Below, piece by piece: positions 10,001-49,346 of a stretch of 64,000 nt of DNA. Within the stretch, counting starts at the first letter, position 1. Each line of letters begins with the position of its first letter. Both the position numbers and the translations under genes were made by a program. The notes under the pieces are model-generated. The model searched no databases. It saw only the letters and a program-made list of their open reading frames with translations, and was not told where the DNA came from. Source of the DNA: Plumapathes pennacea (lineage: Eukaryota > Cnidaria > Anthozoa > Antipatharia > Myriopathidae); contig OZ038464.1 in assembly GCA_964036295.1 (NCBI GenBank), positions 5,628,001 to 5,692,000 of the forward strand, in the 5' to 3' direction.

Positions 10001-13000
10001 TCACCCACAGTCCTTTGCGCGCCGAAATCCTCGATTCGCCTTTTTAGGCCCCCGAAAGTCAAAAGTTGAATAGCAATCCACTTCCATCCGACTCATTTGA
10101 GCAGAAGATTAGTTTCTTTTGACCTAAAAGTGCTATTTGGCTATTTTCTTTTGATATATTACGTTTTTTCGTGTTAATAACCAAATTCAGCCAGATCTTT
10201 TTTTACACATTTCTAAATGTCAACAAAAACATTGAGTTGGCTGAGAATGCTTTATTTTTAGTCTTGAGGTGTACAAGCGTCACAGTGAACATCAAAATCT
10301 GCACTTTAATCCAACGTTTTGTGCACTGACCGCTCACTCAATGTAAGGGTGACCGCACGGCCGAGAAACGTATTTCTGCAGTGTTATTGAAATGGCGATG
10401 ACCGATGTACTTGCACGGTAGCTGTATTTATTTTTTTGTATTTTGCGTTGCTTCTCAGCCCTGGCGTCCGCCTTGGTGAGCGCGCTCGGCGCAATGAACG
10501 CTGACCAGTGGGAAGTGGCTCAACATTGCCCGGAGATGTTTGAGCGAGGAGGATGTTATTTGGATTATGTGGTCAAGGAACTAGGAGCACTCCAGGACAA
10601 CCAACACTGCACTCTATCTTTCTTTCCTAGCAAGGTGCGTGTGCAGACAAAGCTGCCTCCTTGAAGCAAGTATTTAGTGGCCCGTCCCCAGGCTCTCAGA
10701 TACTGAAAGCATGGTGCAGAAAAAAAAAGCGCAAAGGACTGGGGCGAGATAAAGAGATGCTTTCTCGCCCTAGTCTTTCGCGCCTTGTTTCTTTTGCTCG
10801 CTCTTTCTGTGCCTTGCTGCAGTATCTGGTAGCCTGGGAACAGGGTAGTATTTGGTTGCTGTTAAAGCCTGGTCCTCACTAGCGCATAAGCATAAGCATA
10901 GGAATGAGAGAGCGACAGTGGCGAAATAAGCACAAGGAACGGACGTGTTTGATCCTTATGCTTATGTCAACACTGTCGCTCTCTTATTCTTTTGCTTTTG
11001 CTTGTGCTTATGCTTATGCGCTAGTGAGGACCAGGCTTAACTTGGATCAAACGTCGAACTCAGTACAAATGAGCAAAATCCATTGTTTAAAGTGTTTATG
11101 AAGTGAGATTAGCGCTTGCTACTTTTTTTATTTAAATTGAAGAATGGTGCATTTGCAATAGCCTGAACAAATTTGAAAAGATTTCGTTGAATAGTTTTTG
11201 AGTTACAGCGCTTCGAAATCCAGAACAAAAATCGCAAAAATGGAGAAATCGAGCGCTCGGTCAGCCGTGGTGTCACATGACCTTGTGAGGTATGCAGATG
11301 GACGCAAATCTTGGCAGAGTCTACAAATGGCGGCAGAAATCAAGAAGAGAGGGAAAGTACTGCGTTTGTGGTCGTCCAGGTGGACACAGCTGTATTTACA
11401 TGCACAAGTTTCCAAGCGAAGCCACGATGCCGGAATAGCGTAAATTTTGGACAAAGTTTGTGCGAAAGCACTGTCAAAACTTTACTCCAACGAGCTACTC
11501 GGTCATCTGCTTGACCATCACTTTGACCATTCGTGCTATCCTTCCTGCTATTCCTTCAATATACCAACGCATTTAAAGCCAAAATCAACGTACCTAAATC
11601 CTGGTTCAGTCCCAACCTTACATACAAGTCGTGTATTACAACAATCACCGTATATTTTGTCGTTTTGATGCCCCGGGAACTGTGATGAAGGCCAAGTAGG
11701 ATTATATTGTGACCTTTTCGCCAATTTTTTAAAGCTATTTCAGAGTGCCTTTGTGCAAGATTGTGTCATCCGATTATTGACATATTTGCATAATTTCTCC
11801 GACAGTCTGACACATGGAAATGCAGTGAAGTTTTCTCGCCGTGTTTGTTTTCTATGGGCCGAGTTTGTTCGCTCAACACAATCGGACCTCGTATTATTTA
11901 GTGACCGGGTTTACTCGCTTTAACACAATCGGACCATTTATTATTTAGTGACCGGGTTTGCTCGCTCAACACAATCGGATCTTGTATTATTTAGTGACTT
12001 GATTTCTTTTTTCTGTCAAAGATTTTAAATTCGTCAAACGCGGTTTGAAAAGTTGTTGTGTTCAAAATTGAATCCTTGCCAAAACCACACATTCCGAGAC
12101 TTCGAAAGCGTATAAACAAGCGACTCTTGCTTTGACAGTTCTAAATTTGTTACACTCAAAGAAGCGTATGAAATTGATAAAGTAAAAAAACCATACACGT
12201 ATGTGGTTGGCTGGAGTAATCGCGGCTTTTCTTGAAACTCATAAATTTCGGTGTTGAAGATCGACTTTGCAGACTGGGCAAAACTGATCGAGTCACGATT
12301 CTAGTTGCGCTTTTCTTGTTTTGAAAGTCTTGGGAGTATTATGTAGTTGCATGTAGAAGTTGTCTCAGCGAATTTTGGAGTTCAGCTAGTGTCCACGAAA
12401 ACTTGCAGACTGTGCACGTTGTCCGTGCGCCTTATACCGCCGAATACCGCTTCCCAAAAATCCCACTACAGAGCGAGGGGATATCTGCGATTATCGTATT
12501 TCTAGTTTACCAAGAGTCCACTTCAACGATTCTATCAAATCTTTCGGCTAACAAGTGGCCGAAAGGATGCCATCCTCGTCTTCTGTATCCTCTTTATTCT
12601 CTGAAGAATCGCTATCGCTAGCCAAGGGTTCGTTCGTGTACGGCTCGAATAAATCTGAAATATGCTGCCTGTCTTTTTCACTCTCAAATGTCAAGGAAGA
12701 ACTACACGAATGATAACCTGATGAAGAGAAGCGAGCGAGTCACTATCACCAGACATGTTGACAAGTCAAAGCGCGTCCACCTGCATACGTCATCAGTCAA
12801 CTAAACTCGGGCCCAGTCTTTTCGCCATTTTCTTCTATTTTGAGCGACTAATTTGCAGTATTCGGAACGGTGTAACTCAAAAACTATTCAACAAAATCTT
12901 TTCAAATTTGTTCAGGCTATTGCAAACGCACCATTCTTCAATTTAAGTTGAAAAAGTAGCAAGCGCTAATCTCGTTTCATAGACACTTTAAGCTAATTTG

Positions 13001-14697: not shown

Positions 14698-14796
14698 TTT
14701 TCTCTTTCTAAAGCAGAAACATGTTGTTAAAGATCTTTCAGGTACTGCCATACATTTATTAAACACAGAAAACACAGAAAATGGTACGACACAGAA

Positions 14797-14895
14797 AGAC
14801 GCAGAAGACTGGGGCGAGCTTCTGCTCCCGCCTCGCCCTAGTCTTCTTCTGCACCTCGCTTTCAGTATAACGAGAGCCTGGGACGGGCTACCATA
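14797..14895. repeat. Palindrome with GACTGGGGCGAG core, second copy
   Basis: AGACGCAGAAGACTGGGGCG is opposed by CTCGCCCTAGTCTTCTTCTGC. The core is shared with 10684-10846. It starts 100 bp after the VCPIP1 stop codon, so it may be transcribed as 3' UTR. Confidence 0.6.
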
Positions 14896-15490
14896 CTTTT
14901 GTTTGCATCTTTTTCGTCTGTGCGACCACTTGTTGCTTCTGTTTCTGTAACAGGAGCTGTAAGTTTGTCGATTGTTTTGTCAGCCTTCCAAGGAGGTGGG
15001 TAATCACTTTTTTCTATTGGAGATTTGATATTCGCACCGGTTAAAAGGGGTAGAAATGTTTAAGGTAATTTAAAAGTTGTGTACAGTGATCCTTTGTATG
15101 ATTAGTCTCCATCGCATGCGTTGCGTGGCGAGACCATTGTATGATAATATACGTGACGAGGTTCTGTGTGGCGATGGGACAAAAGAGATATTGCTGGTAC
15201 ACAGCCAAATTTCCGCTACTGATGTTCCTATTCACAGATGTGTGTAGATATAGGTAAAGATAAATTTTGTAAGATTAAAGTATAGTTTCTAGAAAGGTCT
15301 TCGCGCGAAATAGCAAAGATATCGAACAAGAAGTGGTGATTATTCGTAGCCTAAATAGACCAGTTTCTCAAGGCTGCGAGCGTCTCTGTGACTGACGGGC
15401 CGAGTATTAAAAATTCACGTATCAACTTTCTTTCAATGCGGACTTATTTGACGTCGATGCAGGTGCGTTATTTTGCGCTATCTAGAGTTC

Positions 15491-15690
15491 TAACCCTTTC
15501 ACTTCCAAGATCAAAATGCAGATTCTCCGAACCTTTTAGGAGTAAAATGTATGAGCAATATAGTGAGAATTGATAGTTAAATCAGCTTTCATCTTGGCAA
15601 GGTATCAAAGGCCAAGTTCTCTCTAATGTATCATGTTTGCGATGAGAAACTGAAAGAGAAAATCGAAGTGGATCACTCTTTCCTACAGCA
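15491..15690. repeat. Palindromic MITE family A copy
   Basis: Begins AACCCTTTCACTTCCAAG, then GATTCTCCGAACCTTTTAGG, GAGAATTGATAGTTAAATCA, GGTATCAAAGGCCAAGTTCT and AGAAAATCGAAGTGGATCAC. The right-hand GAAAGGGTT end is missing. Confidence 0.7.
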
Positions 15691-18044
15691 TTCACGCGTG
15701 ATTGCTGGCTAAACATTTCTCGTATCGAAGTTTGTGGCCCGTCAAGCTTTGCGAATGCGCGCGCAATCTTGAGAAACTAGCCCAGTGTATTTGCATATTC
15801 TGCACGGATACTTACACAAATAAAGCAAAGCGAAACGGAACCCTTCCCATGCTGTAAATAGAATTATTTTGCTTCGTTTTGGATCAACATTTTCGACCTA
15901 CTGACTGTTCAGTTCCAAAAGTGATGACGTCCCAAAAAAGAAATTTTTTTTCTGTAACAATGGATTTTTTTAGATTTTAAAGGTTTTTTTTTTTTTCTGA
16001 AAATGTGCCATTCCTACTCCCAAAGCCACTCAATGACGCTCCCATTCCTAGGAACGGTAACCGCTCCTGCACTAACGTTCCTGTTAGTCCTGCATTTGCG
16101 GGGAAGCTGGTGCGGGAGTAAAAGCAGAGTAGAACCGGAAACCGCTCCCGTGAGGAGCGGAAGCAGGAGCGATGACCGCTCTCAGGGAAGCGGGAGAAGG
16201 AGCGGTAAGTGTGTAGAGTTAACATGCATAATGCTGTGGAAAGAATTATGTATTTGAAATACAAACTTTTACTTATGGAGATATGGCAAGAAAACGATTG
16301 AACCTTTTTGTTTGCTCTTATTTCTTGGGCCCGGCTGTATGAAATATCAAACATTTCATATACAAAGCTTCGTTATAGTTCCAGTAAGGTTCCTTGAAAG
16401 GTTCGAGTCCTTGTAGTTGTTCGAAAATATCTGGTGATATGTTATATTCCTAGCCAGGGCTACTCTACTGTGATGCGGGTCACGTTGTCCTTATAATATT
16501 GTTCCAAGATATCCAGTATTGTGTTATGGTGGCTTTTAGTGTAAGACATCACTCTAACTTGTGCTCAAACACCACGCTAAGGCCAAGTGCACTGCCATTT
16601 TCAGTCTTGTTAGATATTAAACCAGTGATTTCTCGGCGTACCGGCTTCCGTTTGTACGAAGACTGAACCTGGTAAAGTGTTTCAGCACTAAACGAACGTA
16701 CTGTAACAAACAATGCCTTCAGAACAATGCAGTTCGGACCAGGGAAGTCGATCACTTTTACCTTGATGCACAATGCTGTCAGTGTACTCAATACAGCTAC
16801 GACTTTTGTGTCTACTGCTTCGAAGAAGCTGTAGACACTATGCTATCGAGTGTGTAGTGTAATGTAACGTAAGAATCGATAAATAGTCGCGCGTTAATAT
16901 TTGGGACCAATAAAAAGCAACAATTGTTTTCTTGTAAAGTCGGAACGATCTCTGACCGTGTATCAACTTCATCATTGGCTGGAATATTTGCCAACAAAAG
17001 AACGAAGGCTCCCGAAAAAGTCATTTGGTGAGTTTTAGAACCAATTCTTGTTTGCGATATTTTCAAATTTGCATTTGAATCACAGCTTTTGAAAGTATGT
17101 ATTTGGAGCCGCTTGAACGAAAGGTTACTGCCTGTACAACAAGTATTTTTATTTCTATTTTTATTTTTATTTTTGTTTTATTGAAGTTTCAAGCGTCATC
17201 CGATTTTTTGATAAACTTTGTGTACAGACTGACCACACTTCATACCGAAACGGTACGATGCTTAGCTAGCCAGTTATCATTTTGTGTCCATATTTCAGTC
17301 GGCAGACCGTAAAGTGTGAAACACCCATTTGGTCGTTTACTTCTTACAATATGTGACATATGCAAGTATGCCTGGATACAACTTTAAACCTCAACTCTTT
17401 AAGTACATTGTGTATGCCGAAGCCCTTGAACGAAAGGTTACTTTGGTGTTCTTGGTATTCCAGTTAGGAATCGAATTATTAAAACTTCACTTGCGATTTT
17501 CCCTGATTAACTCTGCAAGAGAACAGCATATGCTTTTGCACGGCGTGTCATGATGTATTTAGTCATCCGGTCAATGTTTATCTCTTTCATCGGTTGACTG
17601 AGGCTATAAATGGTGAAACTTCTATGAAACTCGAGGGATCGCGTTCGAATTTGTTCATGTGAGTTCAAAATAAACGTTTTACTCTTCCAAAAAGACATGT
17701 TGTCATATAAACAGGGTTAATAAGTGTGAACTGCACCGCTCGGAAAGAACATGCGCCCTCAAAATGTTTCGGAGGGTAATGCAGGCAAGGTTTTGTGCAC
17801 TGCAGAATATATCCTGCCAATTTTGCTTTGATTTAGGAGGAATTTCAGCCGCCTTGTAGTCCACAGAGAAATTTTTTGACTCACTCTGTGCAGCGCGCCG
17901 AAGATCATAACTATGCATGTTACGCATAATTGAGCGTCTTGTGATTCCTGTAGTAAGAAATAAGCACCCAGGGGGGGCGGGGACTACCATATATATGAGC
18001 CATATAGGTATGTGCCACCCCAATGGGCATCATATTCAGCATTT
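15691..18044. other. Intergenic stretch, no gene recognised
   Basis: There is a G/C-rich purine block at 16040-16205 with repeated GGAGCGG-type words, a 31-nt hairpin at 16808-16838, and a 17-bp direct repeat TTGAACGAAAGGTTACT (near 17114 and 17427). The open frames in this stretch are short, overlap on both strands and show no recognisable motif. Confidence 0.5.
15819..15824 (+). promoter_or_regulatory. Candidate polyadenylation signal of VCPIP1
   Basis: An AATAAA hexamer lies about 1.1 kb after the VCPIP1 stop codon. A weaker ATTAAA lies closer, at 14758-14763. Which one is used cannot be told from sequence. Using the distal site would put the palindrome at 14797-14895 and the MITE at 15491-15690 inside the 3' UTR. 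Confidence 0.3.
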
Positions 18045-19655
18045 TAGTCTGAAAACAGGGTATCGATTTTGAGCCTTTATCTCGCCAACGGATGAAGATA
18101 TATAAAGCAAATGTATTGCAAAAAGTCTTGTCATAGTCCAAAGAAGGTTTCAAGAGTTTTCAATATTTCACAAAAATCCCTGTGCTATAGCTTTAGTATT
18201 TTGTGGTAAATCCAGTCATTTTTCGACCATCTCAGAATCACATGAAAGTTTCAGGAAACGTTCCAGACACTATGCCGACGGTATTTGCATAGTTTTTGTA
18301 AAAATTTAACCCTCACGTCCTAAGATATTAGAGCAAATTAGAGCAAATCATGCACTAATTAAAACATCACACCTTTTGAAGGAATGTTTCCTGAAAGTTT
18401 TAAAAGTTTTCAATTTTTCACAAAAAAACCCTGTGCTATAGCCTTAATGTTTTGTGAAAATCCAGTCATTTTTCGACCATATCAGAAATGCATCAAACTT
18501 TTTAGGAAACGTTCCTGGGACTATGCCGACGGTTTTTGCATAGTTTTTGTAAACTTTTAGCACGCGCGTCGTGAGAAATTAGAGCAAATCATGCACTAAT
18601 TAAAATATCACACCTTTTGTTCAAACGAGCCAAATTTAAGCTGCTATATCTCGCCAACGGATGAAGATAGATAATTCAAATGTACTGCAAAAAGTCCTGT
18701 TATATTCCAAGGAAGGTTTCCTAAAAGTTTTAAAGGTTTTTTAATTTTTGACAAAAAAAAACCTTGTGCTATAGCCTTGGTATTTTGTGAAAAATCCGGT
18801 CATTTTTCGACCATCTCAAAATCGTATGAAACTTTCAGGAAACCTTCCTGCCGACGGTTTTTGCGTAGTTTTTGTAAACTATTAGCCCGTGCGTCCTAAG
18901 AAATTAGAGCAAATTATGCACTAATTAAGACATCACAACTTTTGAGCAAAGGAGCTAAAATTAAGCTACTATCTCTCGCCAAAGGATGGAGATAGATAAA
19001 GCAAATGTATTGCAAAAAGTCCTGTTATATTCCAAGGAAGGTTTCCTGAAAGTTTTAAAAGTTTTCAATTTTTGACAAAAAACCCTGTACTATAGCCTTA
19101 GTATTTTGTGAAAATCCGGTCATTTTTTGACCATCTCAGAATCGCATGAAACTTTCAGGAAACGTTCCAGGGACTATGCCGACGGTTTTTGCATAGTTTT
19201 TGTAAACTTTTAGGTAGCGCGTCGTGAGAAATTAGAGCAAATTAGAGCAAATCATGCACTAATTAAAGCATCACACCTTTTGTTCAAACGAGCCAAATTT
19301 GAGCTGCTATATCTCGCCAAACGATGAAGATAGATAAAAGCAAATGTATTGTAAAAAGTCCTATTATATTCGAAGGAAGGTTTCCTGAAAGTTTTAAAAG
19401 TTTTCAATTTTTGACAAAAAACCCTGTGCTATAGCCTTAGTATTTTGTGAAAATCCGGTCATTTTTTGACCATTTCATAGTTGCATGAATATTTTGGAAA
19501 ACATTCCTGGGACTATGCCGTCGTTTTTTGCATAGTTTTGTAAACTTTTAGCACACGCGTCGTGAGAATTTAGAGCAAATTATGCACTAATTAAAACATC
19601 ACCTTTTGATCAAACGAGCCAAATTTAAGCTGCTATATCTCGCCAACGGATGAAG

Positions 19656-20880
19656 TTCCCCACCAACGTTTATTGGTAAAGTTAAGGGGATACGGGATTG
19701 ACGGTCGCCTCCTAAACTGGCTGGCTGACTTCCTTATGGGTAGAAAACAAAGAGCAGTGCTTCAAGGCAGCTGTTCACCTCGGATGGCAGTTGCCTCTGG
19801 TGTACCCCAAGGCAGCGTGTTGGGCCCAGTTCTATTCTTAGCTTACATGAATGACATCACGACAGGCGTGAAACCAACCTGCGTTTATTCGCAGATGACA
19901 GCAAAATTTACAGAATTATCTACGATGAAGAGGACGAAAAACAACTACAACGTGATCTTGACACTCTCCAAGAATGGAGCAATAACTGGAAACTACGATT
20001 CCATCCAAAAAAATGCGAAGTTCTACGTATCACTCAGAAAAGAGATGATAGCAACAACCCGTACAAGTTGCTTAGAAAATCACTCAAAACTGTGAGTGAA
20101 ACTGTTGACCTGGGCATATCATTAACTTCTCATTTATCCTGGAGTGTTCAAACACAGAAGGTTGTAAACAAGGCAAATAAGATTCTCGGGTTTATCAAAA
20201 GAACTGTTGGTCCGAGCAACAAAGAAGTCTTTACTCGTCTCTGACTATAAGACCCTGGTTTTACCTATCCTTGAATATGCAGCTCCTCTCTGGTCCCCAC
20301 ATCTTAAAAAGAACATCGACGCTCTCGAACGGGTACAGAGGAGACCCTCGAGACATGCCCTTCCACCAGCATCCAGAGACAAACCATACGAGGAAAGGAT
20401 AAAGATATCGAAATGGACCAGTCTTGAGACTAGGAGGACATATTTTTCCTTGCTAGAATGCTATAAGTCACTTCATGGACTCAACGGCCTCAATGGCGCT
20501 GAATACCTTGAGTTTTTTTCTTACAATAAAACAAGAGCGAACCATTCCCTCAAATTAAGAAGACCGAGAGCAAAACTTGACTGTTGTTATCATTCTTTTT
20601 TTGTCATGATTGTTAAAGAGTGGAACGATCTTCCAAAAGATATAGCCGAAGATTCCTTTTCAACTTTTAAAAGTAAATTGAGAAAATATATGAATATTTA
20701 ATTATTTTTATATTGCAATTTTCTTGTAAATTTATATTTCTTATTGCATTTTCTTTTACTTTCATACAATATTTTATATTTTTGTATTAGGGAATGTCCT
20801 CGATAGGGATATTACCTCCATATTTCCTTTTTATGAAATGTTTATTTTTCTTTTCATTTCATAAATAATATATATAATAT
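19656..20880 (+). mobile_element. 5'-truncated LINE reverse transcriptase inserted in the satellite
   Basis: The insertion starts inside the RT domain (VPHQRLLVKLRGYGIDGRLL), then GVPQGSVLGPVLF, then a one-base frameshift near 19880, then LFADDSKIYR (catalytic aspartates present). A second frameshift near 20220 leads into YKTLVLPILEYAAPLWSPH and a C-terminal ..WNDLP..I.. end, with a stop at 20699-20701. The 3' tail is AT-rich and ends in an (ATA)n-like run. The layout fits CR1/L2-type LINEs. The satellite monomer resumes right after it. No clear target duplication was seen. Confidence 0.85.
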
Positions 20881-21066
20881 ATAGCTAAAGCAATTGTATT
20901 ACAAAAAGTCCTGTTATATTCCAAGGAAGGTTTCCTAAAAGTTTTAAAAGTTTTCAATTTTTGACAATAAACCCTGTGCTATAGCCTTAGTATTTTGTGA
21001 AAATCCGGTCATTTTTTGATCATCTCAGAATCGCATCAAGCTTTCAGGAAACGTTCCAGGGACTAT

Positions 21067-22743
21067 GCCGACGGTTTTTGCATAGTTTTTGTAAACTTTT
21101 AGCAAACGCATCGCGAGAAATTAGAGCTAATTAGAGCAAATTATGCACTAATTAAAACATCACACCTTTGGAGCAAGGAGCCATATTGAACCTCCTATAT
21201 TTTGCCAACGGATGAAGATAGATAATGCAAATGTATTGCAAAAGGTCTTGTTATAGTCCAAAGAAGGTTTCCTGAAAGTTTCAAGAGTTTTCAATTTTTG
21301 ACAAAACCCTGTGCTATGGCCTTAGTATTTTGTGAAAATCCGGTCATTTTTTGATCATCTCAGAATCGCATCAACTTTCAGGAAACGTTCCAGGGACTAT
21401 GCCGACGGTTTTTGCATAGTTTCTGTAAATTTTTAGGAAGCGCGTCGTGACAAATTAAAGCAAATTAGAGCAAATTATGCACTAATTAAAACATCACACC
21501 TTAGGAGCAAGGAGCCAAATTGAACCTCCTATATTTTGCCAACGGATGAAGATAGATAAAGCAAATGTATCGCAAAATGTCTTGTTATAGTCCAAAGAAG
21601 GTTTCCTGAAAGTTTCAAGAGTTTTCAATTTTTGACAAAAAACCCTGTGCTATAGCCTTAGTATTTTGTGAAAATCCGGTCATTTTTCGACCATCTCAGA
21701 ATTGCATCAAACTTTCAGGAAACGTTCCAGGGACTATGCCGACGGTTTTTGCATAGTTTTTGTAAACTTTTAGCAAACGCATCGCGAGAAATTAGAGCTA
21801 ATTAGAGCAAATTATGCACTAATTAAAACATCACACCTTTGGAGCAAGGAGCCATATTGAACCTCCTATATTTTGCCAACGGATGAAGATAGATAATGCA
21901 AATGTATTGCAAAAGGTCTTGTTATAGTCCAAAGAAGGTTTCCTGAAAGTTTCAAGAGTTTTCAATTTTTGACAAAACCCTGTGCTATGGCCTTAGTATT
22001 TTGTGAAAATCCGGTCATTTTTTGATCATCTCAGAATCGCATCAACTTTCAGGAAACGTTCCAGGGACTATGCCGACGGTTTTTGCATAGTTTCTGTAAA
22101 TTTTTAGGAAGCGCGTCGTGACAAATTAAAGCAAATTAGAGCAAATTATGCACTAATTAAAACATCACACCTTAGGAGCAAGGAGCCAAATTGAACCTCC
22201 TATATTTTGCCAACGGATGAAGATAGATAAATCAAATGTATCGCAAAATGTCTTGTTATAGTCCAAAGAAGGTTTCCTGAAAGTTTCAAGAGTTTTCAAT
22301 TTTTGACAAAAAACCCTGTGCTATAGCCTTAGTATTTTGTGAAAATCCGGTCATTTTTCGACCATCTCAGAATTGCATTAAACTTTCAGGAAACGTTCCA
22401 GGGACTATGCCGACGGTTTTTGCATAGTTTTTGTAAACTTTTAGCAAACGCATCGCGAGAAATTAGAGCTAATTAGAGCAAATTATGCACTAATTAAAAC
22501 ATCACACCTTTGGAGCAAGGAGCCATATTGAACCTCCTATATTTTGCCAACGGATGAAGATAGATAATGCAAATGTATTGCAAAAGGTCTTGTTATAGTC
22601 CAAAGAAGGTTTCCTGAAAGTTTCAAGAGTTTTCAATTTTTGACAAAACCCTGTGCTATGGCCTTAGTATTTTGTGAAAATCCGGTCATTTTTTGATCAA
22701 CTCAGAATTGCATCAAACTTTCAGGAAACGTTCCAGGGACTAT
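21067..22743 (+). repeat. Dimeric higher-order repeat block (671-bp period) in the satellite
   Basis: Ruler motifs at 21067, 21401, 21738, 22072, 22409 and 22744 alternate 334 and 337 bp, so type-1 units recur every 671 bp. Type-1 units carry AGCAAACGCATCGCGAG and 'GAGCTAATTAGAG'. Type-2 units carry AGGAAGCGCGTCGTGAC and a shortened 'GACAAAACCCTG'. Corresponding units are almost identical by eye. Confidence 0.85.
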
Positions 22744-24765
22744 GCCGACGGTTTTTGCATAGTTTTCGTAAATTTTTAGGAAGCGCATCGCGAGAAATTA
22801 GAGCAAATTAGAGCAAATTATGCACTAATTAAAACATGACACCTTTGGAGCGAGGAGCCAAATTGAACCTCCTATATTTTGCCAACGGATGAAGATAGAT
22901 AAATGCAAATGTATTGCAAAGGGTCTTGTTATAGTCCAAAGAAGGTTTCCTGAAAGTTTCAAGAGTTTTCAATTTTTGACAAAAAACCCTGTGCTATAGC
23001 CTTAGTATTTTGTGAAAATCCGGTCATTTTTCGACCATCTCAGAATTGCATCAAACTTTCAGGAAACGTTCCAGGGACTATGCCGACGGTTTTTGCATAG
23101 TTTTTGTAAATTTTTAGGATGCGCGTCGTGTCAAATTAAAGCAAATTAGAGCAAATTATGCACTAATTAAAACATCACACCTTAGGAGCAAGGAGTCAAA
23201 TTGAACCTCCTATATTTTGCGAACGGAAGAAGATAGATAAAGCAAATATATTGCAAAAAGTCTTGTTATAGTCCAAAGAAGGTTTCCTGAAAGTTTCAAG
23301 AGTTTTCAATTTTTGACAAAAAACCCTGTGCTATAGCCTTTCGTATTTTGTGAAAATCCGGTCATTTTTCGACCATCTCAGAATTGCATCAAACTTTCAG
23401 GAAACGTTCCAGGGACTATGCCGACGGTTTTTGCATAGTTTTTGTAAACTTTTAGGAGGCGCGTAGCGAGAAATTAAAGCAAATTAGAGCAAATTACGCT
23501 CTAATTAATACATCACACCTTTGGAGCAAGGAGTCAAATTGAACCTGCTATATTTTGCCAACGAATGAAGATAGATAAAGCAAATGTATCGCAAAAAGTC
23601 TTGTTATAGTCCAAAGAAGGTTTCCTGAAAGTTTCAAGAGTTTTCAATTTTTGACAAAAAACCCTGTGCTATAGCCTTAGTATTTTGTGAAAATCCGGTC
23701 ATTTTTCGACCATCTCAGAATTGCATCAAACTTTCAGGAAACGTTCCAGGGACTATGCCGACGGTTTTTGCATAGTTTTTGTAAATTTTTAGGATGCGCG
23801 TCGTGTCAAATTAAAGCAAATTAGAGCAAATTATGTACTAATTAAAACATCACACCTTTGGAGCAAGGAGTCAAATTGAACCTCCTATATTTTGCGAACG
23901 GAAGAAGATAGATAAAGCAAATATATTGCAAAAAGTCTTGTTATAGTCCAAAGAAGGTTTCCTGAAAGTTTCAAGAGTTTTCAATTTTTGACAAAAAACC
24001 CTGTGCTATAGCCTTAGTATTTTGTGAAAATCCGGTCATTTTTCGACCATCTCAGAATTGCATCAAACTTTCAGGAAACGTTCCAGGGACTATGCCGACG
24101 GTTTTTGCATAGTTTTTGTAAATTTTTAGGAAGCGCGTCGTGAGAAATTAGGGAAAATTAGAGCAAATTATACACTAATTTAAACATCACACCTTTTGAT
24201 CAAACGAGCCAAATTTAAGCTCCTATATTTCGCCAAAGGATGAAGATACATAAAACAAATGTATAGCAAAAAAGGCTTGTTATAGTCCAAAGGTTTCCTG
24301 AAAGTTTCAAGAGTTTTCATTTTGACAAAAAACCCTGTGCTATAGCCTTAGTATTTTGTGAAAATCCGGTCATTTTTTGACCATCTCAGAATTCCATCAA
24401 ACTTTCAGGAAACGTTCCAAGAACTCTACCGACGGTTTTTGCATAGTTTTTGTAAACTTTTAGGAGGCGCGTAGCGAGAAATTAAAGCAAATTAGAGCAA
24501 ATTACGCTTTAATTAATACATCACACCTTTAGAGCAAGAAGCCATATTGAACCTCCTATATTTTGCCAACGGATGAAGATAGATAAATGCAAATGTATTG
24601 CAAAAGGTCTTGTTATAGTCCAAAGAAGGTTTCCTGAAAGTTTCAAGAGTTTTCAATTTTTGACAAAAAACCCTGTGCTATAGCCTTAGTATTTTGTGAA
24701 AATCCGGTCATTTTTCGACCATCTCAGAATTGCATCAAACTTTCAGGAAACGTTCCAGGGACTAT

Positions 24766-27457
24766 GCCGACGGTTTTTGCATAGTTTTTGTAAATTTTTA
24801 GGAAGCGCGTCGTGAGAAATTAGGGAAAATTAGAGCAAATTATACACTAATTTAAACATCACACCTTTTGATCAAACGAGCCAAATTTAAGCTCCTATAT
24901 TTCGCCAAAGGATGAATATACATAAAACAAATGTATTGCAAAAAAGGCTTGTTATAGTCCAAAGGTTTCCTGAAAGTTTCAAGAGTTTTCATTTTGACAA
25001 AAAACCCTGTGCTATAGCCTTAGTATTTTGTGAAAATCCGGTCATTTTTTGACCATCTCAGAATTCCATCAAACTTTCAGGAAACGTTCCAAGAACTCTA
25101 CCGACGGTTTTTGCATAGTTTTTGTAAACTTTTAGGAGGCGCGTAGCGAGAAATTAAAGCAAATTAGAGCAAATTACGCTTTAATTAATACATCACACCT
25201 TTAGAGCAAGAAGCCATATTGAACCTCCTATATTTTGCCAACGAATGAAGATAGATAAAGCAAATGTATCGCAAAAAGTCTTGTTATAGTCCAAAGAAGG
25301 TTTCCTGAAAGTTTCAAGAGTTTTCAATTTTTGACAAAAAACCCTGTGCTATAGCCTTAGTATTTTGTGAAAATCCGGTCATTTTTTGACCATCTCAGAA
25401 TTGCATCAAACTTTCAGGAAACGTTCCAGGAACTCTACCGACGGTTTTTGCATAGTTTTTGTAAACTTTTAGGAGGCGCGTAGCGAGAAATTAAAGCAAA
25501 TTAGATCAAATTACGCTCTAATTAATACATCACACCTTTGGAGCAAGAAGCCATATTGAACCTCCTATATTTTGCCAACGAATGAAGATAGATAAAGCAA
25601 ATGTATCGCAAAAAGTCTTGTTATAGTCCAAAGAAGGTTTCCTGAAAGTTTCAAGAGTTTTCAATTTTTGACAAAAAACCCTGTGCTATAGCCTTAGTAT
25701 TTTGTGAAAATCCGGTCATTTTTTGATCATCTCAGAATTGCATCAAACTTTCAGGAAACGTTCCAGGGACTATGCCGACGGTTTTTGCATAGTTTTTGTA
25801 AATTTTTAGGAAGCGCATCGCGAAAAATTAGAGCAAATTAGAGCAAATTATGCACTAATTAAAACATCACATCTTTGGAGCAAGAAGCCATATTGAACCT
25901 CCTATATTTTGCCAACGGATGAAGTTAGATAATGCAAATGTATTGCAAAAGGTCTTGTTATAGTCCAAAGAAGGTTTCCTGAAAGTTTCAAGAGTTTTCA
26001 ATTTTTGGCAAAAAACCCTGTGCTATAGCCTTTCGTATTTTGTGAAAATCCGGTCATTTTTCGACCATCTCAGAATTGCATCAAACTTTCAGGAAACGTT
26101 CCAGGGACTATGCCGACGGTTTTTGCATAGTTTTTGTAAATTTTTAGGAAGCGCGTCGTGAGAAATTAGGGAAAATTAGAGCAAATTATACACTAATTTA
26201 AACATCACACCTTTTGATCAAACGAGCCAAATTTAAGCTCCTATATTTCGCCAAAGGATGAATATACATAAAACAAATGTATTGCAAAAAAGGCTTGTTA
26301 TAGTCCAAAGGTTTCCTGAAAGTTTCAAGAGTTTTCATTTTGACAAAAAACCCTGTGCTATAGCCTTAGTATTTTGTGAAAATCCGGTCATTTTTTGACC
26401 ATCTCAGAATTCCATCAAACTTTCAGGAAACGTTCCAAGAACTCTACCGACGGTTTTTGCATAGTTTTTGTAAACTTTTAGGAGGCGCGTAGCGAGAAAT
26501 TAAAGCAAATTAGAGCAAATTACGCTTTAATTAATACATCACACCTTTAGAGCAAGAAGCCATATTGAACCTCCTATATTTTGCCAACGAATGAAGATAG
26601 ATAAAGCAAATGTATCGCAAAAAGTCTTGTTATAGTCCAAAGAAGGTTTCCTGAAAGTTTCAAGAGTTTTCAATTTTTGACAAAAAACCCTGTGCTATAG
26701 CCTTAGTATTTTGTGAAAATCCGGTCATTTTTTGACCATCTCAGAATTGCATCAAACTTTCAGGAAACGTTCCAGGAACTCTACCGACGGTTTTTGCATA
26801 GTTTTTGTAAACTTTTAGGAGGCGCGTAGCGAGAAATTAAAGCAAATTAGATCAAATTACGCTCTAATTAATACATCACACCTTTGGAGCAAGAAGCCAT
26901 ATTGAACCTCCTATATTTTGCCAACGAATGAAGATAGATAAAGCAAATGTATCGCAAAAAGTCTTGTTATAGTCCAAAGAAGGTTTCCTGAAAGTTTCAA
27001 GAGTTTTCAATTTTTGACAAAAAACCCTGTGCTATAGCCTTAGTATTTTGTGAAAATCCGGTCATTTTTTGATCATCTCAGAATTGCATCAAACTTTCAG
27101 GAAACGTTCCAGGGACTATGCCGACGGTTTTTGCATAGTTTTTGTAAATTTTTAGGAAGCGCATCGCGAAAAATTAGAGCAAATTAGAGCAAATTATGCA
27201 CTAATTAAAACATCACATCTTTGGAGCAAGAAGCCATATTGAACCTCCTATATTTTGCCAACGGATGAAGTTAGATAATGCAAATGTATTGCAAAAGGTC
27301 TTGTTATAGTCCAAAGAAGGTTTCCTGAAAGTTTCAAGAGTTTTCAATTTTTGGCAAAAAACCCTGTGCTATAGCCTTTCGTATTTTGTGAAAATCCGGT
27401 CATTTTTCGACCATCTCAGAATTGCATCAAACTTTCAGGAAACGTTCCAGGGACTAT
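24766..27457 (+). repeat. Tetrameric higher-order repeat, two near-identical 1346-bp blocks
   Basis: Four ruler motifs at 24766, 25100, 25437 and 25774 recur at 26112, 26446, 26783 and 27120, each exactly 1346 bp later. Rare variants are copied too: ATGAATATACATAAAACAAA, the 4-bp-shorter CAAAGGTTTCC, CTCTACCGACGG and TAGATCAAATTACGCTC. This marks a recent four-monomer duplication. Confidence 0.9.
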
Positions 27458-30400
27458 GCCGACGGTTTTTGCATAGTTTTTGTAAACTTTTAGGAGGCGC
27501 GTAGCGAGAAATTAAAGCAAATTAGAGCAAATCACGCTCTAATTAATACATCACACCTTTGGAGCAAGGAGTCAAATTGAACCTGCTATATTTTGCCAAC
27601 GAATGAAGATAGATAAAGCAAATGTATCGCAAAAGGTCTTGTTATAGTCCAAAGAAGGTTTCCTGAAAGTTTCAAGACTTTTCAATTTTTGACAAAAAAA
27701 CCCTGTGCTATAGCCTTAGTATTTTGTGAAAATCCGGTCATTTTTTGATCATCTCAGAATTGCATCAAACTTTCAGGAAACGTTCCAGGGACTATTCCGA
27801 CGGTTTTTGGATAGTTTTTGTAAATTTTTAGGAAGCGCATCGCGAGAAATTAGAGCAAATTAGAGCAAATTATGCACTAATTAAAACATCACACCTTTGG
27901 AAGCCATATTGAATCTCCTATATTTTGCCAACGGATGAAGATAGATAATGCAAATGTACTGCAAAAGATCTTGTTATAGTCCAAAGAAGGTTTCCTGAAG
28001 GTTTCAAGAGTTTTCAATTTTTGACAAAACCCTGTGCTATAGCCTTAGTATTTTGTGAAAATCCGGTCATTTTTTGACCATCTCAGAATTGCATCAAACT
28101 TTCAGGAAACCTTCCAGGGACTATGCCGACGGTTTTTGCATAGTTTTTGTAAAAACTTTTAGGAGGCGCGTAGCGAGAAATTAAAGCAAATTAGAGCAAA
28201 TTACGCTCTAATTAATACATCACACCATAGTCCAAAGAAGGTTTCCTGAAAGTTTCAAGAGTTTTCAATTTTTGACAAAAAACCCTGTGCTATAGCCTTA
28301 GTATTTTGTGAAAATCCGGTCATTTTTTGAGCAGTCATTTTGTAAACTTTTACAAAACGCATCGCGAGAAATTAGAGCAAATTATAGCAAATTATGCACT
28401 AATTAAAACATCACACCTTTGGAGCAAGGAGCCATATTGAACCTCCTATATTTTGCCAAAGGATGAAGATAGATATAGCAAATGTATTGCAAAAAGTCTT
28501 GTTATAGTCCAATTAAGGTTTCCTGAAAGTTTCAAGAGTTTTCAATTTTTGACAAAAAACCCTGTGCTATAGCCTTAGTATTTTGTGAAGATCCGGTCAT
28601 TTTTTGACCATCTCAGAATTGCATCAAACTTTCAGGAAACGTTCCAGGGACTATGCCGATGGTTTTTGCATAGTTTTTGTAAATTATTAGGAAGCGCGTC
28701 GTGAGAAATTAGGGAAAATTAGAGCAAATTATACACTAATTTAAACATCACACCTTTTGATCAAACGAGCCAAATTTAAGCTCCTATATTTCGCCAAAGG
28801 ATAAAGATAGATAAAACAAAATATATTGCAAAAGGTCTTGTTATTGTCCAAATAAGGTGTCCTGAAAGTTTCAAGACTTTTTAATTTTTGACAAAAAACC
28901 CTGTGCTATAGCCTTAGTATTTTGTGAAAATCCGGTCATTTTTTGACCATCTCAGAATCGCATCATACTTTCAGGAAACGTTCCAGGGACTATGCCGACG
29001 GTTTTTGCATAGATTTTTGTAAACTTTTAGCAAGCGCATCGCCAGAAATTAGAGCAAATTAGAGCAAATTATGCACTAATTAAAACATCACACCTTTGCA
29101 GCAAGGAGCCAAATTGAACCTCCTATATTTTGCCAAAGGATGAAGATAGATATAACAAATGTATTGCAAAAGATCTTTTTATAGTCCAAAGAAGGTTTCC
29201 TGAAAGTTTCAAGAGTTTTCAATTTTTGACAAAAAACCCTGTGCTATAGCCTTAGTATTTTGTGAAAATCCGGTCATTTTTTGACCATCTCAGAATCGCA
29301 TCAAACTTTCGGGAAACGTTCCAGGGACTATGCCGATGGTTTTTGCATACTTTTTGTAAACTTTTAGGAAGCGCGTGGCGAGAAATTAGAGCAAATTAGA
29401 GCAAATTATGCACTAATTAAAACATCAAACATTTGGAGCAAGGAGCCAAATTGAACCTCCTATATTTTGCCAAAACATGAAGATAGATATAGCAAATGTA
29501 TTGCAAAAGGTCTTCTTATAGTCCAAAGAAGGTTTCTTGAAAGTTTCAAGAGTTTTCAATATTTGACAAAAAACCCTGTGCTATAGTCTTAGTATTTTGT
29601 GAAAATCCGGCCATTTTTTGACCATCTCAGAATCGCATCATACTTTCAGGAAACGTTCCAGGGACTATGCCGACGGTTTTTGCATAGTTTTTGTAAACTT
29701 TTAGGAAGCGCGTCGCGAAAAATTAGGGAAAATTAGAGGAAATTATGCACTAATTAAAACATCACACTATTTCATCAAACGAGCCAAATTTAAGCTCCTA
29801 TATTTCGCCAAAGGATGTAGATACATAAAACAAATGTATTGTAAAAAGGCTTGTTATAGTCCAAAGAAGGTTTCCTGAAAGTTTCAAGAGTTTTCATTTT
29901 GACAAAAAAGCCTGTGCTATAACCTTATTATTTTGTGAAAATCCGGTCATTTTTTGACCATCTCAGATTCGTATCAATCTTTCAGGAAACGTTCCAGGAA
30001 CTCTACCGACGGTTTTTGCATAGTTTTTGTAAACTTTTAGGAGGCGGGTAGCGAGAAATTAGAGCAAATTATAGCAAATTATGCTCTAATTAATACACCA
30101 CACCTTTGGAGCAAGGAGCCAAATTGAAGCTGCTATATTTTGCCAACGAATGAAGATAGATAAAGCAAATATATCGCAAAAAGTCTTGTTATAGTCCAAA
30201 TAAGGTGTCCTGAAAGTTTCAAGAGTTTTGAATTTTTGACAAAAAACCCTGTGCTATAGCCTTAGTATTTTGTGAAAATCCGGTCATTTTTTGACCATCT
30301 CAGAATCGCATCAAACTTTCGGGAAGCGTTCCATGGACTATGCGGACGGTTTTCGAATAGTTTTTGTAAACTTTTAGGTAGCGCTTCATGAGAAATTAGA

Positions 30401-30938
30401 GCAAATTAGAGCAAATTATGCACTAATTAAAACATCACACCTTTGGAGCAAGGAGCCAAATTGAACCTCCTATATTTTGGCAAAGGATTAAGATAGATAA
30501 AGGAAATTTATTGCAAAAAGTCTTGTTATAGTCCAAAGAAGTTTTCCTGAAAGTTTCAAGAGTTTTTAATTTTTGACAAAAAACCTTGTGCTATAGCCTT
30601 ATTATTTTGTGAAAATCCGGTCATTTTTTGACCATCTCAGAATTGTCTCAAACTTTCTGGAAACGTTCCAGGAACTATGCCGACGGTTTTTCCATAGTTT
30701 TTGTAAACTTTAAGCACGCACGTCGTGAGAAATTAGAGGAAATTAGTGCAAATCATGCACTAATTAAAACATCACACCTTTCGAGGAAAGGAGCCAAATT
30801 TAAGCTGCTATATTTCGCCAACGGATTAAGATAGATAAAGCAAATGTATTGCAAAAAGTCTTGTTATAGTCCAATGATGGTTTCCTAAACATTTCAAGAG
30901 TTTTTTATTTTTGACAGAACACCCTGTGCTATAGCCCA

Positions 30939-33900
30939 AAGAATTCTAATCTTGCCCGTATTATTTCTATTGTTGTTTTTCTAAAACGTTCACCATTGGC
31001 ACTGGTTATGCGCGTAACTTTTTTCTTCGTTTTGGAAACGTTGTAGTTACGCAGGTATTGATTTAATGTTTTTATTGTGTTTACTTGTACTTAGTTTATC
31101 GTACTATTTCAGCTCGACGGTATAAAAAGCAACGCTGAAATTCCCTCACAAAATGGTTGTTGTTTTCGCCTACTTTTAAGGTGTTTGCATCATTTTTTTT
31201 CTTCGAAAACTGATGTTTTCTTAGTCGCTCTCTTTAATCTTGCCACAAATTTGTAGAATATTTTCTGTTCGCTCTCAAATTTTGATACGGCTTGATAAAT
31301 AATGTTGGACATGGTTTTAGATTTTAGATTTTCTTCTGTGTACAATGTAGTAACTTGCCTGATAGGTTTATTTGTAACACCTCAAGTTATTAGTATTAGT
31401 TTTTTTTGGTGCATGCGGCTGCTAGTTATATACTATTCAGAAATAGAAAGTTGCGCACTGTTTTCCAGCACAGGAATTTTGTGAAATTATTTTTTACGAG
31501 AACAAATTATTTTGATTTGGATATTTCTTAGCTTTTCAAGGCAAACAAAGAATATTTCGCGGCAGAAATAATACAGTTGTGTCTGTTTGCGCAAATTTAC
31601 AGCCATTTGTTTCGCGCTGTTTATATTTTTGAAGGGTATATCTTTATCTGGTACTGAACCTGAAATTTTTACTTGCAAAATTAAAATGGACTTATTCAAA
31701 TAGAAACAATTCAACACTGAATCTTTACTCGGAAGCAATCAACAGTTTTGTGTCTTCTGTGATTCATTTGCGCCACAATTTTGGTGGCCTGACTAAATTG
31801 ACCCCCGAGGTTTGTCCAGATTGTGTTTTTTTTCTTTAAATTTTCAACTGTACCAGAGTTTAGGTTTGTGTATTTCCGGAGTTAGAACTGTTTAGCTTGT
31901 GGTTCTGTCAAGTTGGGATAGTTGGAAGAGAATTGTGCACTGTCTTTTGTCTATTGGGTTGGGAAGTCGTTTTGATTCCGTCGCACAATTTTTCATTCAA
32001 TTTTAAAATTTAGCTTATGACGCCGTTTGAATTAACTAATGCTTCACAAAGCTGACGCGGTTCAATTTTAAGTGAATGGCTACGTCGCCAAGAGTTTAAT
32101 TCCCACTTCATGTAAGCTTTTATCGTTTTCAAATGCACTTGAAATATTTTAAAGACTTCATCTGTAATATTGTATTCGATTTTTGTTGCAAAAACTATTT
32201 TATTCATTGCCATTTGCGAGCAGTTCGCATTTCTCTTCCTCCATCCTGGCTTATCAGACGATCCCTTCGGCTAAGCAGTAACTTGTAATATGCTTTTTTA
32301 TGTCTGTTTGTGGGTGCGTCACATGTAAAAGCTACCTCATGGCTCAAGTCAATTTGCTTTCACTGTCGAGGGAAATAGATCAAGTGTTCGCATTCGAATT
32401 CGAATTAGAACCGCGGGAATTGAATAGCAATTCCGCACCAAATTTTATTGACGCATGATATACCTTTACTTGTGATGCATTGGATGCATCATTTCATATA
32501 TTCACCGTCTATTTGGCGCGCGCTTCTTAAACTTTACATGGCGGGGATTATTGCGCGGAGCAACTAATGCAGGCAATCGGTGTCTGTTTTCTTTCGCGAA
32601 GGCTCTAAAAACGTAGTCGGTGTATTTTGAAATGTTTGTAGCCTTTAGCTTTTTAGTGAATGACCTATACTTTAATGCGATATGATGTACGTGAATATGT
32701 AATATGCAGTATAACCTGCAAAACTTGTTTTATAATTAAAGATGACATAAGACCATGATGCTTTTCAAACTTTAATGACGTCACATTCAGAGTGCATATA
32801 AGTAAATTTTCAGGTAGGGGTGGTTGGTCGTGGCTACAACTATGGTCAAACTTTTTTGCTTACCTAATAAGGTTAATGATCGGACTTTGAAACAGCAAGA
32901 GTAATAGAGTTGTACTAGTTATGTAGTAGTAAAAGAGCACTACTAAACTGTTACAACTACTATTACTATTACTACTTCAAAGCACATATACGCGAACCTA
33001 GCAGTTAAGTAAATTGAAGGAGAGGCTCTGAGAAACGGAAAGCAAATAACGCAAAGAAAAAAGGGTTTATTAAAATTGGGATATTTAACAAAAATTCGGC
33101 GCATGAAGTTGGCATAAGCCTTCAGCCAAATCAAGAATATCGGAGCCAAAATGAAAGACGTTTCTCAGAGCCTCCCGTTCCAAATCCTTTTTGAAATAAG
33201 GAGGGAAGGTATTCCCTTGCTTCTAATAAACACGCACAACATGGGATATGGTTGTTGAATCACTAGAAAATCATAAAGGTAGAATTGAAGTTTTTGCTTC
33301 GCACAAAATTGTTCAAAACGGCTGTTATTTATCCTGAAAACCCGAAGTCAGAATGTAAAGAAGATCCGTGCAATTAACTCAAAACAACGTTGCAATTGAT
33401 CATCGCAAAGTTCCATTTGAAATTTGCGACTACTCAATTGAGCAAAATTCCTATTTCGGACGCAAATTTCCTTTTGAAATTTACCGAGATAAAAATTTCC
33501 CTAGTTTTCTCGTTCCTATTTCAGCATTGCAAAGTTCCATTTGAAATTTGCAATTAAATTTTCAGTGATTCGAAAGAAACAACCACATCCCATTATATGC
33601 AGAGATCAAGCATACTAAAATGACTGCAGTGCCGTTGACGCGAAATTGAACGCGATAAAGAAACCACGCGAGAAACCGTTTCGAAAGAGAAAATAAAAAC
33701 ACTCCGCTCAGCTTGCATTTGAATATGAAATCAGATACTCTAGCTCAGTTAAACTCTGTATTTTCCACATTCTTGTAAGCGGGCAGTTCTAGTGCACCGT
33801 AAATTATCGGATGGTACATTCAAATTTCGCGCTCGATATTTGTGATTGCGCCAAACTCGAGATACAATAAGGATGAATATTTATTGTCAAGAAACAATAG

Positions 33901-34376
33901 GCTGAGTATCACGTGTTGGTCTCCGAGGAAAACGTTTTCGGCACAAACAAAAAACAATACCAACAACAACACTGGAAAAAAAAACTTGATTTATAATTTG
34001 TGGGAAAAACTTGCTATTTTCGTGTTCTTCGCTAAGTAGAGAGGGCAAAATCCCTACGAAAACATTCTGATAAACCATTTTTCGACTTAAATTCTCCGTC
34101 AGAATCTGTAGCACTGAACTGAATGTTTGCGTTAGCCACAAAATGGCTTTGAATCTCGCGGGTTTGCAGTTGTATATGGCTAATTTAATTTGAATAGCAA
34201 AAAAAAAAAAAAAAAAGAGTTCTTTCGCGATGTACTGAAGCCGGTTCGTGTAGAAAATGTCTCTTGATCTTTTCAGTAACGGCTTGTTTGCAGTCATGTA
34301 AAGTAAGCTTGGCTAACAACGAAACAAGGTGTCTCAATAGAACAGATACTTGAAGCACTGACTTCTCGAGAACGGT
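30939..34376. other. AT-rich intergenic stretch, no gene recognised
   Basis: No open frame has a recognisable motif. A 23-bp direct repeat containing AAAGTTCCATTTGAAATTTG occurs at 33405-33427 and 33529-33551, with a weaker third version at about 33460-33484. A 19-bp A-run is at about 34199-34217. Confidence 0.5.
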
Positions 34377-34908
34377 TTGGAACGTTCACCCAATCTCAGA
34401 CCTCCATCGTCAGGCACCACCGACCTCAGACCTCCAACCTCAGGCATTTGGGACTGGGTCCAACTACCAACCTCGGGCTCTTGGGGAGAATGGGGACCAC
34501 CAACCTTAGACACATTCCCTAGGAGACTACAACCACAACGTCAGGCACAAAATGGCGGACGTGACGTGGCTGACAGGAAACAGCGATACGAACAACAAAT
34601 ACGTTTAATATTAGCAATAACATGAACTGTGATTGTCTCATAATTGTAGCGAATGTTATAGCGAACTTGAACACGGCCGTAATCTGTAATTTATGTTTCT
34701 TGGACACTCGTTCGTTTCAAAGGAAACAGGTATGATGATGTGATTCGCCCAAATGTAAAATCCTAACAGAAATCATCTCTGAAGTGTTGTAACTTCCTTG
34801 TATTGAGTAAAAATCAACGATCACTTCGCTTGATCCTGTTCTACATGCAGTTCTACGTGAACAGAAACACTTATTGCAGCCTGCGAATCAGAATAACAAT
34901 AATTCTAA

Positions 34909-35308
34909 TTACTGCCGTCGGGTCTTGACAGGCGGCGCATAATATCTCCCGATGCGTACATCATTCTGTTCGCCAGCATTTGCTTGGTTGGTCCGCCGTC
35001 GTGTCCATTGAAATTCTGCCGGAAAACGTTGGAGAAGCTGATCCTCCACTGTTTGAGCAAGGTTTTCAGGGGAGGCTAACCTCGCTTGAACGTTGGTAAC
35101 GAAAGTGGCCTTATCAGTACTCCCATCCGTGTCTGCCGCTGTGGTCACCTCCATGAAAGTGGCCACCAAAGTCGTTTGGAATACATTCGCATACCCGGAC
35201 GGCTTCTTTCAGAACGTTCTCTAGCTCTCCAGTTCTGTCCATTTCTCGTATTAGTTCCTTTACTCGCCCTTGCATTTCTTCTTCCGCCATTGCTTTACCG
35301 TCTGTCAT
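34909..35308 (-). pseudogene. Short coding-like remnant near the left end of the 8.5-kb unit
   Basis: Minus-strand frame 35308-35114 gives a charged helical stretch (MQGRVKELIREMDRTGELEN) followed by CECIPNDFGGHFHGG. One base out of frame, 35169-34909 continues as TFVTNVQARLASPENLAQ and LLQRFPAEFQWTRRRTNQA, with a stop at 34909. The two halves read as one protein split by a frameshift. I do not recognise the family. Confidence 0.25.
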
Positions 35309-36094
35309 GCGACTGGAGAGAATTCAATAGGGCGTGTAATTTTAAATACTTCAACGCTTGGCAGTCGTCGTATTGTCGTCCAACTATGGCCAATTGGGAT
35401 TGCAGGTACGGTAGTCCTAATATGCACCATACTAACTAACCGTTCCAGAGTATTGGCAAGTGTAACTATTATTTTATTTGTTGAAATATAATACGGGTCA
35501 TTGACTCTTGCTGTCATTATACCCACCTGTGGCGCCTAATCTTTGGCAGTTCCCACTCGCTTGACTTCAGTGGTCGCCACGAGAGAATGGTAGACAAACA
35601 TTGTAATACAATTGTAGGTCCATGTAATGACTGCAAACTTTTATTAAAATTTTGCCGTACTGGGGCCCGTTTGCACTAGACTGAGTTAGTTATTGATACA
35701 GTTTTTGTTTGGGAGGCACGTGCAAAATATTCATTGACGACAAAGTTGTATCGGCGTCGTTTTTTTCGAATACGAAAAGCCCCCTTTCTTGTAGAGTGTA
35801 ACACTGTCATGGAATAAGTCGAGGAAAGTTACCTTGATTCGAGATCTGCGCCTCAACTGCATTTTGCGTCCGTCAGATCCATTTATTTGGCCTCGAATCT
35901 TCGGAGGATCGGTGACTACCTCTACGCTCTCCGCAGCATCTGCTTCCCACAGATTTGAGGAGCAGGATTGGCCTTCCACGGGCGACGGTTCAGTCCTACA
36001 TATATACGACGAAAGAGGAAAGGTCGGAAAATAACAATACCGTAAAATACGGAAATATGCCTCCCTGAAACTGTTTCTATAATGAGCCCTCAAC

Positions 36095-44340: not shown

Positions 44341-44344
44341 TGTA

Positions 44345-44735: not shown

Positions 44736-45129
44736 CAACAAATTTATTAAATACTGTACAGTACACATAACATCTGGAAACTATTTCATCTGCAGCACGG
44801 GATAATTTTAAATGGGAACGTACTGTACCATTTTCAGATTTTTCTTTTCCTAATTTAACCACACAAAAAGAAAGGCAGATGTGACAAATTTAAAGTTCAT
44901 CACTTGACTTTCTGAAGATTATTTTGGTGCTTTATTTGTTGTCACAACAAAAATCTGGGAAATTTATTTTAACTACAGTACCACTCTCAGCCCCAGTGTT
45001 TTCACCTACAATAGCAAGGAAACCTACACGCATTAATTTGTGCTCTTTTGTTTGAAAAGGGTGAACTCTTAGGGAATGACTTGCTCTTATTATTCCCCAT
45101 CCGCTCTATATAAGATCAAAAACATGTCC

Positions 45130-45270
45130 AGGAACATGTCCTGAAAGTTTCATGCAATTCTGAGATTAGGCCGAGACTATACTCTGACTTTAATATTGGG
45201 CCAAAAATGGCCAATTTTCAAAAAAATGGTAATAAGGTTATAGTGCATGCCTTTTGTCAAAAATAGCCAT
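45130..45270 (-). repeat. Solitary diverged satellite monomer, inverted
   Basis: On the plus strand it reads TGTCCTGAAAGTTTCATGCA, ATTCTGAGAT, AAAAATGGCCAATTTTCA, AATAAGGTTATAGTGCATG and TTTTGTCAAAAATAG. This is the reverse complement order of the satellite monomer (TTTTTGACAAAA, CTGTGCTATAGCCTTAGTAT, GAAAATCCGGTCATTTTT, ATCTCAGAATTGCATCAAAC, TTTCAGGAAAC), heavily diverged. It is about 14 kb from the array. Confidence 0.6.
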
Positions 45271-47351: not shown

Positions 47352-47422
47352 GTAATCCGGGTCTTGGTCCTGACCTACCGAAGGCGGGCCAAGTAGGAAA
47401 ATGGGAAGAATTTGTTTTATAG

Positions 47423-49281: not shown

Positions 49282-49343
<62 letters not shown>
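49270..49343 (+). repeat. (TTA)n microsatellite
   Basis: More than 20 uninterrupted ATT/TTA triplets following a short (GGT)n run. Confidence 0.95.

Positions 49344-49346
<3 letters not shown>

Follow-up and report, generated by a model that had tools for sequence, protein, structure and literature searches.

The beginnings of satellite DNA are mostly inferred from finished, large arrays. Human alpha satellite higher-order repeats consist of tandem monomers with multi-monomer duplications. The array described here shares this organization; however, its multi-monomer units stand in two copies and its monomer contains a long palindrome. Such monomers have been described in insects, although the available part of a report on Tribolium madens calls longer dyads in satellite monomers “not so common” (PMC13081366). 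In TmSat2, the minor satellite of this species, oppositely oriented subunits form a long imperfect palindrome in each tandem monomer, as far as the same part of the source describes it (PMC13081366). Compared by description, our array shares this feature but differs in scale and setting: TmSat2 has a 704-bp monomer with ~300-bp arms and occupies megabase, likely (peri)centromeric regions in arrays that switch orientation, whereas here a 337-bp monomer with a ~200-bp palindrome forms one 13-kb array, in one orientation and near genes. Two other insect satellites, likened to ours by description and not by sequence, are mentioned in that part of the source: that of Trichogramma brassicae (385 bp, with 80-bp inverted repeats), which is near 337 bp in size, and that of Tribolium brevicornis (1061 bp, with ~470-bp inverted segments in the monomer) (both via PMC13081366). 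A review, in its available part, presents comparable routes from miniature inverted-repeat transposable elements (MITEs) to satellites, including stem-and-loop models (PMC12628747). Among them are Xstir and miDNA4 of Xenopus, in which scattered elements accompany related tandem arrays and amplification by stem-and-loop is modelled; their repeats, however, relate to the interior of a MITE with recognisable ends, while no ends or target-site duplications were recognised by eye in ours (PMC12628747, available part). The locus presented below is a new array of a known type, a satellite with inverted segments inside the monomer. The array itself is ordinary, and the part worth following is the built-in inverted pair with single copies nearby. 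The array is small, its monomer can be separated into an inverted pair, and diverged single copies lie within 15 kb of its edges, which makes the steps of satellite formation testable in one genome.

The window, the whole 64-kb stretch of DNA that was analysed, contains a tandem array of ~13 kb with a 337-bp consensus monomer. Judged by its genes and repeats, the window would come from an animal, perhaps an anthozoan. Tandem Repeats Finder (TRF) divides the array into 18379-19655, 20881-28226, and 28338-30936 and gives its unit as 325 or 337 bp. With the single monomer m14 as query, nhmmer finds 36 plus-strand monomer pieces from ~18098 to ~30936, and BLAST places the pieces at the same sites. 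After cutting and alignment, 31 of the 36 measure 325-339 bp and five are shorter (106-288 bp); all share one orientation (+). The monomers are AT-rich (~35% GC), their pairwise identity averages 90.9% with a minimum of 79.7%, and neighbours in the array differ by ~3-14%. Internal deletions are present in the main part at 28226/28227 and 28327/28338. The longest stop-free stretch in 20881-30936 has 73 codons, and the locus shows what defines a local-array satellite, a non-coding monomer repeated many times head to tail. The initial annotation placed the array at 18045-30938, with 34 monomers spaced at 334-338 bp and worn edges. The right boundary agrees, but the left one, judged by eye, is nearer to 18068. 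The number of monomers was close to our count, in which five pieces are short, and the wear was confirmed by the alignment, where the outer pieces are more diverged. The tandem 337-bp consensus was confirmed; the spacing, however, is not continuous, since an insertion at 19656-20880, absent from the initial annotation, interrupts the array and divides it into 5 + 31 pieces. An open frame of the insertion resembles the reverse-transcriptase family PF00078 with E 3.8e-05, at 23.9 bits where the Pfam cut-off is 29.6; no Pfam match was obtained for another frame that overlaps it. The 3' end of the insertion is AT-rich, and past it the monomer restarts at consensus position 1; by its appearance only, the insertion may be of the non-LTR type and 5'-truncated.

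The monomer was also sought elsewhere. Exact patterns of its core had 0 matches in viral and prokaryotic contig collections, a result that says little given the nature of these collections. No match to phages was obtained with blastn for 680 bases of the array, and four monomer stretches searched as text in the literature gave 0 matches. Among the matches listed for literature on satellites, corals, anthozoans, cnidarians, and centromeres no recognisable monomer was found, and a published description may exist beyond them; the available part of one coral paper holds no description of the monomer (PMC9005458).

Table 1. Positions in the window of the array, its internal features, and neighbouring elements
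Feature	Position	Strand	Evidence and remarks
Array, left part, m01-m05 (5 pieces)	18098..19655	+	nhmmer, alignment; among the most diverged; m01 and m02 shortened
Insertion with reverse-transcriptase similarity, 1225 bp	19656..20880	+	PF00078 match on 19855-20244
Array, main part, m06-m36 (31 pieces)	20881..30936	+	TRF, nhmmer, alignment
Dimer duplication, two ~671-bp copies, m07-m08 / m09-m10	21218..22559	+	alignment
Palindrome, example in m14	23582..23779	.	m14 against its own reverse complement, positions 12-209, 63% identity
Tetramer duplication, two copies, offset 1346 bp, m17-m20 / m21-m24	24579..27270	+	alignment
Lone arm-like copy, diverged	16311..16440	+	~65-68% identical to both monomer arms
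Degenerate copy of monomer positions 76-309 (right arm + spacer)	45033..45265	-	90% identity over a 39-bp core
Open frame with OTU1-UBXL domain, 8 kb left of array	9442-10047		PF21403, E 3.2e-11
Open frame with EGF domain, 27 kb right of array	57942-58286	other strand	PF00008, E 0.00025
Second dispersed family, copies	2315-2436, 5349-5456, 5604-5672, 5904-6116, 6677-6897, 7202-7413, 15488-15680, 44343-44511, 49596-49698		
Palindromic elements	57250-57406, 10884-11007, 62156-62292, 7617-7665		78-88% self-complementary

The identity between monomers changes little with their distance: the means for steps 1-8 are 91.7, 92.9, 92.2, 92.3, 91.8, 92.2, 91.2, and 91.4%, nearly flat, with a slight rise at step 2 and no sustained period. 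The periods of 671 and 1346 bp that had been taken for higher-order structure are present, but they arise from discrete two-copy duplications. In the dimer duplication, m07 and m09 are 100% identical and m08 and m10 99.4%; m15-m16 resemble m17-m18 with 99.1 and 99.4% identity. For the tetramer, the corresponding values are 98.8, 100, 100, and 100%, and an exact run of 1452 bp (24689-26140) is repeated at offset 1346, its second copy ending at 27486, just past m24. Centromeric satellites with higher-order repeats contain a unit repeated many times, with identity far above that of the monomers, and this was not found. Both periods are local duplication and not a higher-order repeat of the alpha-satellite type.

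Within the monomer, consensus positions 12-209 form a degenerate palindrome of ~200 bp centred near position 110, and the rest is a spacer of ~139 bp. Aligned to its own reverse complement, the consensus scores 44.0, which none of 500 shuffles reaches (mean 16.5, sd 3.75, max 33.9). Long inverted segments within the monomer, i.e., intramonomer dyad symmetry, are thus a property of the consensus. Taken individually, 24 of 36 pieces, among them 23 of the 31 with full length, have a palindrome that 0 of 200 own shuffles reach; in the other 12 (8 full-length), from 1 to 151 of 200 shuffles reach it. These 12 include m05, m06, m34, m35, and four of the five truncated pieces, and several of the full-length ones are near the edges. 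The minus-strand nhmmer matches in the array, among the matches listed, extend from monomer positions ~17-20 to ~201-212; they cover the palindrome and therefore do not represent reversed monomers. An exact 13-base core, TTCCTGAAAGTTT, occurs in the left arm of 28/36 pieces and in the right arm of 22/36, and GTTTCCTGAAAGTTT stands in both arms of the consensus. A heat-shock-element reading of the conserved core was considered. The motif TTCNNGAA, which we take to be that of a heat-shock element, was counted 62 times in the array, where copies are not independent, and 21 times elsewhere in the window; the strict three-unit site occurs 0 times in the array, and the reading was set aside, although kept as a lead.

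The two parts of the monomer diverge to a different extent. In a set of 29 monomers, which omits m09, m22, m23, and m24 (100% identical to m07, m18, m19, and m20) and the truncated m27, m28, and m36, divergence is 3.8% in the palindrome vs 8.2% in the spacer, with 87/198 and 82/139 variable sites, respectively (Mann-Whitney over sites, p 2.6e-4). When a block of equal length is slid round the monomer, however, the contrast is at least as strong at 10 of 337 positions, counting that of the palindrome, and the 37-bp arm cores come 25th of 337 circular slides; the contrast is thus suggestive only. Hairpin-assisted homogenisation or constraint may explain why the palindrome is less diverged.

Sequences related to the monomer are also found outside the array. 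With the array masked, a profile of two monomers matches 45264-45033 (E 1.2e-14) and 16347-16437 (E 2.1e-05), whereas the best of ten resampled sequences has E 1.2. The copy at 16.3 kb matches this profile on the opposite strand too (E 0.0015). Because both orientations were matched, an arm profile was built from the left arms and the reverse-complemented right arms of 22 monomers. The two top matches of this profile are 16312-16427, with 37.7 bits and E 8.5e-11, and 45081-45169, with 32.3 bits and E 3.8e-09. The next match has 5.3 bits; by comparison, 60 block-wise dinucleotide shuffles reach 9.0 at most, and the reversed sequence reaches 6.7. Profiles of the whole monomer, in four rotations, give the 16.3-kb copy at most 20.0 bits, and a lone arm would be expected to prefer the arm profile in this way. 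On the other hand, the 45-kb copy matches the whole monomer at 43-50 bits, over a stretch that crosses the centre of the palindrome and enters the spacer. In direct alignments, the 16.3-kb copy shares 81/125 aligned positions with the left arm and 78/115 with the right arm (0/500 shuffles each), and the 45-kb copy shares 73/86 with the right arm, with 22 gap positions (0/500). The left arm is not evident in the 45-kb copy, to which it is weakly alike (5/500 shuffles score as high), and the two dispersed copies are weakly alike directly (47/69 positions; 5/500 as high). Two diverged copies in the window correspond to the dispersal expected of a MITE; however, inspection by eye of the array edges and the dispersed copies revealed neither terminal repeats nor a target-site duplication, so MITE is here a resemblance and not a membership. 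The lone arm copy also contains, at 16400-16410, an exact GGTTCGAGTCC, presumably a tRNA-type B box. It occurs 0 times in the array, and a SINE reading of the lone arm, which was considered, is therefore unsupported.

We consider it probable that a dispersed, MITE-like element was duplicated head-to-head and that the inverted pair was then tandemly amplified into a non-coding, local satellite. The simplest reading of the alignments is that both arms of the monomer would descend from one unit of ~125 bp, with the 16.3-kb copy as such a unit alone and the 45-kb copy as a worn palindromic unit with spacer. The process would start from a short dispersed element of this size, MITE-like in its scattered copies and inverted arms; head-to-head duplication would give the inverted pair with spacer, 337 bp in length, and tandem copies of the pair would then have accumulated, probably through unequal crossing-over, replication slippage, or circles that re-inserted. 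Central duplications of two and four monomers, decay of the edges, and one retroelement insertion would have come later. The array probably has no function for the organism. What the results show directly is the array, the palindrome (in the consensus and in most full-length monomers), the relationship of the arms to one another and to the dispersed copies, the duplications, and the insertion; the sequence of steps, the mode of amplification, and the lack of a function are deduced. Further palindromic elements in the window are counted in favour of the inverted-pair origin. The order of events can also be turned round: both dispersed copies could have escaped from the array as monomers and decayed, and would then not be its ancestors. 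A bolder form of the inverted-pair origin assumes that every stage in which inverted duplication gives rise to a satellite is present in the window (lone arm, worn palindromic copy, array) and that the palindrome, with half the divergence of the spacer, is active, either as an extruding hairpin or through GTTTCCTGAAAGTTT as a protein-binding core, and drives copying and homogenisation; this form is tentative and seems to us rather doubtful.

Alternatively, the array could be a tandem-repeat region inside a larger transposable element, either Helitron/Helentron-like or a MITE that carries a satellite, and would have moved together with that element. Satellites inside such elements are documented in the available part of the review cited above (PMC12628747), and dispersed, diverged copies do exist here. 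However, the flanks (14000-18098 vs 30937-35500) match only weakly (best E 0.055), no element ends were recognised by eye at the array edges, and 36 copies seem long for an internal array; we regard this origin as unlikely. A different proposal is that a functional RNA, a hairpin or a self-cleaving one, is transcribed from the array, similar to the tandem repeats of retrozymes. Hammerhead ribozymes are carried by tandem repeats of similar size in some animals. The consensus folds into an RNA of -86.4 kcal/mol, stronger than 100 shuffles (z -3.67), but in the consensus fold across the 29 monomers the covariation term is unfavourable (+0.88) and a two-sided change is present in 2/52 pairs, which does not support RNA-type covariation of the hairpin in this set. 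The stability follows from the palindrome and covariation adds nothing, so the fold looks like its by-product. The Rfam search gave no match at gathering score in the window and none at E up to 1 in 17900-31100, and thus found in the unit neither the hammerhead nor another known ribozyme that defines a retrozyme; such a template is scarcely credible. A false duplication caused by an assembly error would explain why a single exact 1452-bp duplicate exists where neighbouring monomers differ as much as given above. Only ~1346 bp would be affected, though, and most other monomers are too different for copies made by assembly, which leaves the error very improbable.

The remaining question is whether the array could be centromeric or pericentromeric, a small outlying block in which the intramonomer dyad would help to recruit centromere proteins. 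The tandem AT-rich monomers, the long dyad, and the local duplications are consistent with it, and long intramonomer dyads are reported in putative (peri)centromeric satellites such as TmSat2 (PMC13081366, available part). Against it, the array has only 13 kb with unrelated DNA beyond both edges, open frames with protein domains lie 8 and 27 kb away, a retroelement has inserted into it, and a sustained higher-order repeat is missing. Many centromeric satellites also have no CENP-B box. Sites resembling the box, whose core we take to be TTCGNNNNANNCGGG, were sought with up to one mismatch; 0 were found in the array and 3 in the window, where 6.3 are expected by chance, so the array does not resemble a CENP-B-binding satellite. 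We consider a centromeric or pericentromeric role quite improbable. The centromere candidate of the initial annotation gained no positive support, although it was not refuted, and the alternative offered there, simply a local expansion, agrees with the evidence. The monomer length had also been likened to two nucleosomes; it may instead reflect a spacer and an inverted pair whose unit was older and shorter. More generally, a monomer of 337 bp may suggest “two nucleosomes” and show apparent higher-order periods although it is an inverted dimer that was recently duplicated, and by itself is no evidence of a centromere.

Several other repeats accompany the array in the window. A second dispersed family comprises several copies of ~65-220 bp in both orientations, ~74-90% alike. 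Among the palindromic elements, that at 10884 has inverted ends that run on into the flanks (CCTCACTAGCGCATAAGCATAAGC...) and is MITE-like by appearance, while 44624-44688 matches 62147-62210, part of the element at 62156, with 83% identity. A GIY-YIG endonuclease domain (PF01541, E 3.1e-05) is encoded at 53278-53610 (-), perhaps, we assume, as a relic of a retroelement. A 21-bp minisatellite with 27 copies occupies 46781-47348, and the region 46754-47422 around it has one long open frame on each strand, of 222 aa (+) and 205 aa (-). A pure TTA microsatellite of 20.7 copies is located at 49283-49344.
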